This document shows, piece after piece, positions 6,065 to 8,486 of a stretch of 64,000 nucleotides of DNA (position 1 is the stretch's first letter; the number at the start of each line of letters is the position of its first letter). The notes beneath the pieces are model-generated. The model was not told the DNA's origin. It did no database searches and worked only from the letters and a program-made list of their open reading frames with translations. This DNA is from Peribacillus loiseleuriae. GTDB lineage: Bacteria > Bacillota > Bacilli > Bacillales > DSM-1321. The stretch covers positions 1,209,812 to 1,273,811 of the forward strand of contig NZ_LFZW01000001.1 of assembly GCF_001183985.1 (NCBI RefSeq), written 5' to 3'. A program made the translations under genes and the position numbers.

Positions 6065-6490
6065 TTAATTCTTAATGTTCTGTGAAATGGATTGTGCCAT
6101 AATTTTTAAGTCTTCAGTTGTGTATTCACTCGTATGAGTTTTCCAGACGGCTCCAAATCCGTCCCCTTCACCGTAGCGCGGAATTAGATGGAGATGGTAA
6201 TGGAAAACGGACTGTCCAGCAGCTTCACCGTTATTATTTATTGTATTTAAGCCGATTGGATTGAACGCTTGTTTCATAGCTCGAGCAATTTCTGGCACCA
6301 CTTCAAAAATGTTTTTTGCAATGTCAGGTGTTAATTCATATACATTTTCTTTATGTACTTTTGGGATGACTAGTGTATGACCTTTCGTTACTTGACTAAT
6401 GTCAAGAAAGGCAAGTACATGTTCATTTTCAAATACTTTTGTACTTGGAATCTCTCCATTAATAATTTTACAAAAAATACAATCGCTCAT
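6065..6490 (-). CDS. hit: HIT-family nucleotide hydrolase/transferase
   Basis: 141 residues from the ATG at 6490, which lies nine bases after AAGGAAGG. The zinc-like CIFCKI motif comes first, then FLDISQVTKGHTLVIPK, GLNTINNNGEAAGQSVFHYH and the histidine triad HYHLHLIPR. Family members act on nucleoside phosphoramidates or AMP-linked substrates. The frame stays open upstream into the repeat region, but that extension lacks any family similarity. Divergent from ecsA as in B. subtilis, although the intergenic distance here is much larger because of repeat units. Confidence 0.93.
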   Translation of the reverse strand: MSDCIFCKIINGEIPSTKVFENEHVLAFLDISQVTKGHTLVIPKVHKENVYELTPDIAKNIFEVVPEIARAMKQAFNPIGLNTINNNGEAAGQSVFHYHLHLIPRYGEGDGFGAVWKTHTSEYTTEDLKIMAQSISQNIKN

Positions 6491-6562
6491 CTTTGACATC
6501 CTTCCTTGGTTAATGTTTAGAGGTAATCTTATCCTATCATAGCTACATGAAAGTCGGAAAGA

Positions 6563-6965
6563 AAAAGAAACAGGATGCAGCTGATTGCTGCACCCTGCGA
6601 TTCTTGAAAAAGGGGCCATCCTTCAATACGTTTAGTTACATAGACTTTTCTTTAACAAACACCTCATTTACTAAAAGTAAGTTTTAGCGTTTAAAAAAGT
6701 TTTTGCATTCAAAGCAACCATCTCCTATATCTCTAAAGTATTACAACAGTAAAGTATATTGGATCGTGCATGAATGTTTACTTCGTCTAATGTGTGCAAA
6801 GCAACCATCTCCTTGCATAAAACGTTTGGTTCATTGAAGTTCTTGGTATATTGCAGTTAGTTGTCTTTAACTGACACCTCATTTGACAAAATGATTAAAT
6901 CATAAGTTTAATGAAGAACCCCTTCTTCACTACTTATGATAGCCACGATTCACATTTTATATACA
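6563..6965 (-). ncRNA. Family D repeat unit 1: candidate terminator-ended small RNA
   Basis: About 400 bp, nearly identical to 7192-7593. Read on the minus strand it starts near a hairpin (ATCATAAG ... GAAGAA-GGGG-TTCTTC ... CTTATGAT), holds two copies of GGAGATGGTTGCTTTG and two of AAATGAGGTGT followed by GTTAAAGA, and ends in an intrinsic terminator: CAGGGTGCAGC-AATCA-GCTGCATCCTG then TTTCTTTTTCTTT. A possible promoter (TTGGAA, 16 bases, TATAAA) lies upstream. Short ORFs starting at the GGAGATGG motif are not conserved between the copies. An untranslated RNA, or a leader of hit (70 bases downstream), is the likeliest reading; expression is inferred only. Confidence 0.45.
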
Positions 6966-7020
6966 TATGTTTTTTGTTTATATAAAAATAACGAAGTTTT
7001 CCAAATAACATGAACGTACA

Positions 7021-7138
7021 TTATAGTACGTATTCAAAAAGAAGGGTGAAAAGAGCGGAGAAGTTCGAGAACCGGAAAGACAGAGCGGTGACACAATTTG
7101 CAAGCCTTTTTACCGGACTTTTGACCATCCGTTTATAG
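7021..7138 (+). repeat. Dispersed repeat family B, copy 2
   Basis: Runs from GTACGTATTCAAAAAGAAGG through GCGGAGAAGTTCGAGAACCG and GACAGAGCGG to TTTTTACCGGACTTTTGACC. It matches the minus-strand reading of 888-1024 and parts of 53409-53560. It lies exactly between the two family D units. Confidence 0.75.
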
Positions 7139-7191
7139 AAGAGAAGTTGTTGTTATATCCTTGGTTGGGAATATATATGAATTTATATGTT

Positions 7192-7593
7192 AAAAAAGAA
7201 ACAGGATGCAGCTAATTGCTGCACCCTGCCTATGAAAAAGGGGCCACACTTCAAATACGTTTAATTACATAGACTTGTCTTCGACAAACACCTCATTTAC
7301 TAAAAGTAAGGTTAAGTGTTTAAAAAAGTTTTTGCATTCAAAGCAACCATCTCCTATAACTCTAAAGTTTTGCAACAATAAAGCATATTGGATCGTTCAT
7401 GAATGTTTATTTCGTCTAATGTTCGCAAAGCAACCATCTCCTTGCATAAACGTTTGGTTTAGTGAAGTTTCTGGTATATTGCAGTTAGTTGTCTTTAACT
7501 GACACCTCATTTGACAAGATGATAAAATCAAAAGTCTAATGAAGAACCCCTTCTTCACTACTTATGATAACCACGATTTTAGTTTTATATACA
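7192..7593 (-). ncRNA. Family D repeat unit 2: candidate terminator-ended small RNA
   Basis: Second copy of the unit at 6563-6965, same orientation, offset by about 630 bases. The terminator stem (CAGGGTGCAGC / GCTGCATCCTG with loop AATTA) and all four internal motif copies are kept. The outer stem of the 5' hairpin is weaker here (CTTTTGAT instead of CTTATGAT). One base is missing in the stretch before the second-motif region (GTTTATGC versus GTTTTATGC), which would shift any reading frame through it. Conserved motifs with unstable frames favour RNA function over peptide coding. It lies immediately upstream of ecsA but points away from it. Confidence 0.45.
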
Positions 7594-7742
7594 CGAGGAT
7601 TAATAATATTTTTTTCACTATTTAGAAAAGCGTTGTAGGTAGACAGTAAAATTCGTTAAAAAACTAAAGCTTTCTTAACTCGATAAACAAAAGGGAATTT
7701 GCTAAAATGGAACTAACATATATTATGGAAGGGATCGTTGAT

Positions 7743-8486
7743 ATGTCCTTATTAGAAATAAACAACTTAGTCGGAGGTTATACAAGAATTCCTGTATTAA
7801 AAGGAATCAGCTTTGACATTCAACCGAATGAGCTTGTTGGACTTATTGGTTTGAATGGAGCAGGTAAGAGTACAACGATTAAGCATATTATTGGATTGAT
7901 GGAAGAGAAGAGTGGTTCGATTACGATTAATGGAAAAACGTTTGCAGAGAATCCAGATGCATATCGAAAACAGTATACCTATATTCCTGAAACACCTATT
8001 CTTTATGATGAGCTTACACTTGAGGAACACTTAAGGCTTACTGCGATGGCATACGGTCTAGAGGAATCCGTGTTTAAAGATAGGATGGGGAAATTATTAA
8101 AGGAATTCCATATGGAAAAACGTTTATCTTGGTTCCCAGCCCATTTTTCAAAAGGGATGCGGCAAAAGGTGATGATTATGTGTGCGTTCCTTGTTCAACC
8201 ATCCTTGTATATTGTGGATGAACCATTTGTTGGGCTAGATCCGCTCGGAATTCAGTCGTTACTCGACCTTATGCAAAATATGAAAGAAAGCGGTGCAGGG
8301 ATCTTAATGTCTACTCATATCCTTGCGACAGCAGAAAGATATTGTGATTCTTTCGTCATTCTTCACAATGGAGAAATTCGTGCAAAGGGTGATTTAGAAC
8401 AGCTGCGAAGTCAATTTGACATGCCAGGAGCAACGCTTGATGACTTATATATTCAATTGACAAAGGAAGAAACTAAACATGAATAG
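7743..8486 (+). CDS. ecsA: EcsA, ATPase of the Ecs ABC transporter
   Basis: 247 residues from ATG 7743 (GGAAGGG upstream; the frame extends to 7707 without a ribosome site). Walker A GLNGAGKSTT, a variant signature FSKGMRQKV, Walker B LYIVDEPFVGLDPL and H-loop STHI are visible. It is very close to B. subtilis EcsA (YTYIPETPILYDELTLEEHL, WFPAHFSKGM). The Ecs transporter affects regulated intramembrane proteolysis, exoenzyme secretion and competence, possibly by exporting peptide products. Overlaps ecsB by eight bases. Confidence 0.96.
   Translation: MSLLEINNLVGGYTRIPVLKGISFDIQPNELVGLIGLNGAGKSTTIKHIIGLMEEKSGSITINGKTFAENPDAYRKQYTYIPETPILYDELTLEEHLRLTAMAYGLEESVFKDRMGKLLKEFHMEKRLSWFPAHFSKGMRQKVMIMCAFLVQPSLYIVDEPFVGLDPLGIQSLLDLMQNMKESGAGILMSTHILATAERYCDSFVILHNGEIRAKGDLEQLRSQFDMPGATLDDLYIQLTKEETKHE

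Follow-up and report, generated by a model that had tools for sequence, protein, structure and literature searches.

Between a hit gene and a divergent ecsA-like gene in the window (the whole stretch of 64,000 nucleotides analysed), the minus strand carries two units of about 360 nt each, and the RNAs predicted from them are 91.6% identical. In each unit, motifs in the order A-B-B-A lie between a 5' box and a 3' box, followed by a strong intrinsic terminator. The features, with their positions in the window, are as follows.

7707–8486, plus strand: ecsA-like ABC ATPase, divergent, synteny marker (PF00005, E 2.1e-29)
7563–7592, minus strand: unit 1 promoter-like site GTATA-N15-GGTTATCATA, sigmaF/G type by match to the consensus
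7541–7556, minus strand: unit 1 5' box GAAGAAGGGGTTCTTC, pairing with the 3' box (family-wide swap test)
7502–7512, minus strand: unit 1 motif A, copy 1, AAATGAGGTGT
7426–7442, minus strand: unit 1 motif B, copy 1, AGGAGATGGTTGCTTTG (ribosome-binding site and UUG)
7354–7428, minus strand: unit 1 micro-ORF 1, UUG start, 24 codons and stop (family test)
7339–7355, minus strand: unit 1 motif B, copy 2
7312–7341, minus strand: unit 1 micro-ORF 2, UUG start, 9 codons and stop
7288–7298, minus strand: unit 1 motif A, copy 2
7234–7245, minus strand: unit 1 3' box GGCCCCTTTTTC
7193–7229, minus strand: unit 1 intrinsic terminator
6985–7180, minus strand: spacer between the units, a dispersed genomic repeat outside the RNA
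6935–6964, minus strand: unit 2 promoter-like site GTATA-N15-GGCTATCATA
6913–6928, minus strand: unit 2 5' box
6874–6884, minus strand: unit 2 motif A, copy 1
6797–6813, minus strand: unit 2 motif B, copy 1
6725–6799, minus strand: unit 2 micro-ORF 1, 24 codons and stop
6710–6726, minus strand: unit 2 motif B, copy 2
6671–6712, minus strand: unit 2 micro-ORF 2, 13 codons and stop
6659–6669, minus strand: unit 2 motif A, copy 2
6606–6617, minus strand: unit 2 3' box
6562–6598, minus strand: unit 2 intrinsic terminator
6065–6499, minus strand: hit (HIT-domain protein), downstream gene, synteny marker (PF01230, E 3.4e-29)

Gap-free direct repeats of 215, 146 and 37 nt (89, 91 and 97% identical) recur at a spacing of 628–631, which bears out the two near-identical minus-strand units described by the first-pass annotation. 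Its tandem unit of about 400 bp fits the conserved unit but not the repeat period, which is approximately 630 bp. The paired internal motifs it reported are likewise correct in part: motif A (AAAUGAGGUGU / AAATGAGGTGT) and motif B (AGGAGAUGGUUGCUUUG / AGGAGATGGTTGCTTTG) do occur twice in each unit, but unit 2 alone has GTTAAAGA after each A motif, the second copy in unit 1 being GTCGAAGA. The strong terminator it assigned to each unit was found at 7229–7193 and 6598–6562, and from the 5' box to the terminator the two predicted RNAs span 357 and 360 nt. In unit 2, micro-ORF 2 ends in UAG, which is followed immediately by the UAA of ..UAAAUGAGG in motif A. The name ecsA for the gene at 7707–8486 was taken from the synteny given in PMC9147052.

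In the whole genome the unit occurs only as the two copies of the window, while the 196-bp spacer has 50 matches in the genome (itself included), some of them as two separate halves, and looks like a MITE-type element. A relative whose EcsA is 98.8% identical (L164) also has two units, and the window units are 95.5% and 96.9% identical to their positional counterparts there, as against 91.6% to each other; the duplication is therefore not recent, both copies predating the split from this relative. Peribacillus huizhouensis (L069, EcsA 96.5% identical) also has two units, with positional pairs slightly closer than cross pairs (89.4 versus 88.2% and 91.1 versus 87.8%), but window unit 1 is nearer to window unit 2 than to unit 1 of P. 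huizhouensis, so that a shared duplication plus some homogenisation is likely, though not proven. In two genomes of another genus (G565 and G611), R1, the covariance model described below, matches three times in each at a spacing of approximately 560–630 bp, which suggests that tandems of this sRNA gene have had more than one origin.

By DNA similarity, the unit is present in all 25 genomes of the same genus (own included) and in none of 16 others, and five of the same-genus genomes show a second, distant match. In three Peribacillus-like genomes (L028–L030), the second family locus adjoins a small conserved ORF; our reading of the translations places a nucleotidase-like gene nearby in two of them (L028 and L029). 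The first-pass annotation had proposed a covariance search between hit and ecsA in relatives, and a model of the 3' part of the RNA built from the genus (R1) indeed places the RNA there. At E 0.01, R1 has matches in 25 of 398 genomes of the class, four of which look false. Of 24 R1 loci from further genomes, 17 lie between hit and ecsA, three (L047–L049) have the motif elsewhere, and four are without the motif; the weak matches L046, L051, L052 and L055 were taken as false for want of it. Across the order, R1 has matches at E 0.001 in 101 of 299 genomes, which represent 37 of 116 genera, and all 25 loci newly fetched after this search, which were the best-scoring ones and included seven from the same genus, lie between hit and ecsA.

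A pattern scan for motif A in named genomes returned at least 119 stretches. Among the 119 listed, 84 have both flanking genes with the motif between them, in genera including Bacillus, Cytobacillus, Metabacillus, Priestia, Neobacillus, Heyndrickxia, Niallia and Rossellomorea; the other 35 were left out as having no such pair of flanks or being placed elsewhere. The pattern matches L058, L090, L134 and L149 were taken as chance. The genus-level R1 extends to the copy of B. nakamurai (L054) and matches two genomes of the B. subtilis group, G108 (E 0.006) and G199 (E 0.004), both in the hit-ecsA gap, while three other genomes of the same genus in the sample (G054, G275 and G362) were not reached by R1. 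Each of the 18 genomes of the class search whose hit-ecsA gap holds the RNA (own included) has a sigma-G match too, as against 267 of 398 overall, a co-occurrence that shared ancestry alone could explain. Rfam 15 at the gathering score gave no matches in the window and none in the family loci L036, L045 and L053, and a lax Rfam search of 6450–7720 gave sub-threshold matches only.

Small RNAs have been detected experimentally at the same place. In B. velezensis, the 294-nt Bvs196, located between hinT and ecsA, gives an independent Northern band of about 300 nt; its expression is forespore-specific, weak under sigmaF and strong under sigmaG, its deletion changes spore resistance, and it binds spo0A and sspN-tlp mRNA in vitro (PMC9147052). 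Its homologue in B. subtilis is S357, for which the discussion section of the same paper writes S547 (PMC9147052), the latter being CsfG (PMC8216469). The 256-nt ncr1670 from hinT-ecsA, with an Hfq co-immunoprecipitation ratio of 2.77 (PMC3574147), has been equated with S357 (PMC4410918), and the 323-nt BLi_r0844 of B. licheniformis lies at yhaA1/hit (PMC3871023).

The window RNA shares with Bvs196/S357 the place between hit/hinT and ecsA, the strand of hit, a sigmaF/G-type promoter-like site, an intrinsic terminator and a stable fold, together with homology to B. subtilis-group members via R1 and the motif A array. It differs in number and length, the window having two tandem genes of about 365 nt and Bvs196 being a single gene of about 294 nt, and also in layout, since a window unit is A-B-B-A with micro-ORFs, whereas motif B is absent from the B. 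subtilis group, where the pattern is A-A-A with no micro-ORFs in 8 of 8 loci checked. With an assumed start, the predicted lengths are approximately 295–299 nt in three B. subtilis-group loci (about 299 nt in B. nakamurai, compared with 294 nt for Bvs196).

Since the RNA occupies the Bvs196/S357/ncr1670 place between hit and ecsA, we consider it probable that the window holds two tandem genes that are a local form of this known sRNA family, made in the forespore under sigmaF/sigmaG. The window units themselves show the homology and the conserved position, and they carry the promoter-like sites, the terminator signals, the array of motifs and the micro-ORFs; forespore expression would follow by analogy with the published relative. 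The duplicated small RNA gene proposed in the first-pass annotation is thus supported by promoter and terminator signals, conserved structure, synteny across many genera and the relatives that experiments have revealed at this position. The RNA itself is already known, and it is the extent of the family, the motif array and the micro-ORFs that we did not find in print: a literature search, with most subscription papers outside its scope, returned no report of the three, and the terms ‘motif’, ‘open reading frame’ and ‘peptide’ do not occur in the main text of PMC9147052. Bvs196 has hitherto been studied as an antisense sRNA of Bacillus, and the same gene is now placed in those 37 sampled genera of the order.

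By match to the sigmaF/G consensus, each unit has a promoter-like site of sigmaF/sigmaG type, with the general form GTATA-N15-GGYTATCATA in both. In 33 of 101 intergenic regions (IGRs) of the family, the first motif is preceded by a strict sigmaF-like site, as compared with 0.003 per IGR in shuffled upstream sequence.

The predicted fold of unit 2 is stable (−100.8 kcal/mol, z −5.0), and none of 100 shuffles was as good. The 5' hairpin of the first-pass annotation, GAAGAAGGGGTTCTTC, can form, but the relatives favour instead a closing stem in which GAAGAAGGGG pairs with CCCCTTTTTC at the 3' end. When the 5' and 3' boxes were swapped among RNAs, pairing within the same RNA was better than pairing with the boxes of others, and none of 5000 permutations reached the observed sum (n = 32, remaining from 101 IGRs after 50 with no automatic boxes and then 19 of 51 redundant ones were dropped); taken singly, the true pairing ranks within the top 10% of an RNA's own swaps for 14 of the 32 RNAs, and several among the remainder look mis-picked. 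In an alignment of 14 sequences from the genus, 96.4% of cells pair, as against 43–44% when slid by one column. Two-sided changes are found at three pairs only, a number equalled in 134 of 500 shuffles, indicating that covariation within the genus is modest.

Motif A occurs 336 times, in 100 of 101 IGRs, with 2–7 copies per IGR (one IGR can hold two units). It should be noted that 84 of these IGRs were picked by one exact A pattern, and the 35 model-chosen IGRs form the fairer set. In the latter, exact AATGAGGTGT is found 90 times in the sense direction and never in antisense (0.02 expected by shuffling), and 34 of the 35 contain at least two ATGRGGTG, of which one copy falls within the model. 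In one genome (L008/L209), a module containing motif A repeats every 76 nt. A second member of the family in Priestia aryabhattai B8W22 (L083, contig44), located away from hit/ecsA, has four ATGAGGTG and one motif B.

The GAGGUG of motif A is complementary to the anti-Shine-Dalgarno sequence. The base preceding it is U in 309 of 311 cases and never G (U in 94 of 94 in the model-chosen IGRs). Motif A is accordingly not tuned to the anti-Shine-Dalgarno; pure Shine-Dalgarno mimicry, which would allow G, is weakened by this fixed U. The pairing energy of motif A with the anti-Shine-Dalgarno reaches only the 2.7–5th percentile of window tiles. The first-pass suggestion that Shine-Dalgarno-like motifs may bind ribosomes is plausible for motif B and possible for motif A.

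Several other roles of motif A were considered and rejected. As an ORF start it meets in-frame stops at codons 4–5 (TGA 5, TAA 3), and positions −10 to −6 upstream of it are almost free of G, that is, there is no Shine-Dalgarno sequence; the fourth codon is a leucine codon (TTG, TTA, CTA or CTG) in 228 of 257 cases. The signal for a small hairpin within the motif is weak (best position pair 0.79 versus 0.68 shuffled). KrrA was set aside as a partner, the published passages on it giving no binding motif. A genome scan for the complement ACACCTCATT returned 19 places, four of which are the units' own complement, whereas the backwards control gave 10. Three further genomic AATGRGGTG sites that were retrieved (L176–L178) proved unrelated.

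Motif B has the form of a ribosome-binding site followed by a UUG start codon. Of 125 motif B sites in the first 101 IGRs, 124 have NUG at the same distance (TTG in 118, ATG in 6), and of the non-redundant sites, left after 78 of the 124 were dropped as redundant or too short, 43 of 46 open an ORF of 5–20 codons, while shuffles give a mean of 22.3 and a maximum of 35 (2000 rounds) and the other two frames 46% and 43%. Where an A motif follows, the stop codon precedes it in 118 of 118 cases, counting three AUGA overlaps, and is directly adjacent to it in 11. The later-fetched loci, which were filtered only against themselves and are thus not fully independent, agree with this: 33 of 38 motif B-like sites have NUG, the other five, in as many related loci, being near-identical copies of one sequence with AAA; 18 of 19 non-redundant sites have 5–20 codons (10 and 13 in the other frames), the exception being the AAA site; and the stop lies before A in 19 of 19.

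This anatomy suggests, tentatively and at somewhat less than an even chance, that the RNA may act as a multivalent decoy. The repeated AAUGAGGUGU sites, held in a closed multi-hairpin scaffold, would titrate a single partner, be it an RNA-binding protein or the anti-Shine-Dalgarno region of the 30S subunit. The start sites of motif B would load ribosomes, which would make a peptide of about 10 codons with no conserved sequence and halt just 5' of the next A site, and the number of sites would be raised by gene tandems and expanded A arrays. That the number of A sites varies through array expansion and tandems while the site itself hardly changes speaks for the decoy; predicted folding speaks against it, as A is left unexposed, with a mean unpaired probability of 0.27 (0.26 for B, 0.25 for other G-rich 10-mers, 0.38 for the rest).

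CsrB/RsmZ-type protein sponges carry many copies of a short G-rich motif on a hairpin scaffold, and the window RNA is similar to them in its repeated G-rich motif and scaffold. The repeated GGA in hairpin loops that marks this family was not found, however: CsrA requires GGA, which motif A (AAUGAGGUGU) lacks; GGA is present in motif B, but that motif is missing from the B. subtilis group. In its widest form, the decoy reading is of a forespore RNA spread over the Bacillaceae, in which the invariant AAUGAGGUGU sites would either sequester an RNA-binding protein dedicated to them or hold 30S subunits in reserve, ribosomes on UUG micro-ORFs would terminate before each site, translation capacity would be tuned or stored at dormancy, and tandems and A arrays would set the dose; we regard this as rather doubtful. 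Motif A offers a concrete starting point in the search for what this conserved forespore RNA binds, and a connection of a sporulation sRNA with the ribosome becomes testable.

Another possible, if on balance unlikely, explanation is that of a classical antisense sRNA that base-pairs with spo0A, sspN-tlp and other mRNAs, the repeated motifs being merely structural. Dissociation constants of Bvs196 measured by MST, mutants included, are 73.9 nM for sspN-tlp and 3.57 uM for spo0A, and the deletion has resistance phenotypes (PMC9147052). The published target pairing involves nucleotides 74–131 (PMC9147052), which, placed on the B. nakamurai relative with an assumed start, fall between the A copies at 29 and 146, whereas the strong conservation is that of the motif array.

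The constraint on start, distance and length of the micro-ORFs might also mean that the micro-peptides are the product of a dual-function or coding RNA, which we consider improbable. Across the family, the peptide sequences show no conservation beyond the first residues, six of the eight codons of micro-ORF 1 that differ between unit 1 and unit 2 alter the residue, and the B. subtilis group does without motif B. The micro-ORFs are thus not essential to the family as such, and, with peptide sequences unconserved, what is kept would seem to be the act of translation or the point at which it ends. The first-pass annotation had judged peptide coding unlikely, which is right as regards peptide sequence but overlooks that, across the family, motif B leads into a start codon and a short ORF whose length is constrained.

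Pairing with C-rich targets was also put forward in the first pass, and one reading of the RNA is that of a G-rich sponge of the C-rich forespore sRNA CsfG, as RosA is for RoxS/FsrA. RosA (S345) of B. subtilis is stand-alone and G-rich like the window RNA, and one of its G-rich regions may be the Shine-Dalgarno sequence of a 7-codon ORF (PMC8216469); it is set apart by sigmaA/CcpA control and pairing with C-rich sRNAs, whereas the window RNA is of sigmaF/G type. CsfG (Rfam ylbH, RF00516) resembles the window RNA as a conserved forespore sRNA of endospore formers, is described as under sigmaF/G and with no known target, and its RF00516 element is present in 41 of 41 genomes searched; it differs in being CU-rich, at another locus, and devoid of motif A in 30 copies aligned. 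CsfG corresponds to the reverse strand of RF00516, and its CU-rich segments are nearly invariant in these copies (L179–L208). Motif B is in the best 4–6% of window tiles for pairing with CsfG, but no better than shuffles (0.22–0.79). The universal element, motif A, does not surpass shuffled sequence either (fraction 0.53–0.59) and falls in the 24–49th percentile of tiles. The match to a C-rich sRNA expected of a RosA-like sponge was thus not found between motif A and CsfG, CsfG fails as the partner of motif A, and such a sponge is very unlikely.

It is highly improbable that the RNA is a cis-acting leader (attenuator) of hit, despite being on the same strand, directly upstream of it and ended by a terminator, as relatives occur away from hit (the second Peribacillus-like locus and the P. 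aryabhattai member), each unit has its own terminator, twice in succession, and Bvs196 runs as an independent Northern band (PMC9147052). A decayed mobile or dispersed repeat with no function, which the first-pass annotation had named as the finding that would speak against its proposal, can practically be dismissed: the spacer is dispersed and the units are duplicated, but the unit occurs only twice in the genome, and its motifs, matching closing stems and synteny between hit and ecsA are kept over many genera.

Motif A was also seen in a second type of RNA of approximately 170 nt, together with a GGGGTG-N2-GG-N2-TTGG site, which is also similar to a Shine-Dalgarno sequence with UUG. Its closing stem is GCAAGG/CTTGC, a terminator of its own is usually present, and it was observed at L047, L077, L081, L103, L106, L125, L131, L141, L142, L156, L166, L167 and L059; the three R1 loci with the motif outside the hit-ecsA gap (L047–L049) belong to it. 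By our own reading, it lies downstream of desK/desR-like two-component genes at L047, L077, L106 and L166, and an sRNA in yocG-yocH is mentioned in PMC9147052. The same 8-kb loci contain Rfam matches to T-box, BsrG and c-di-GMP-II (L141) and to 6S RNA (L081).
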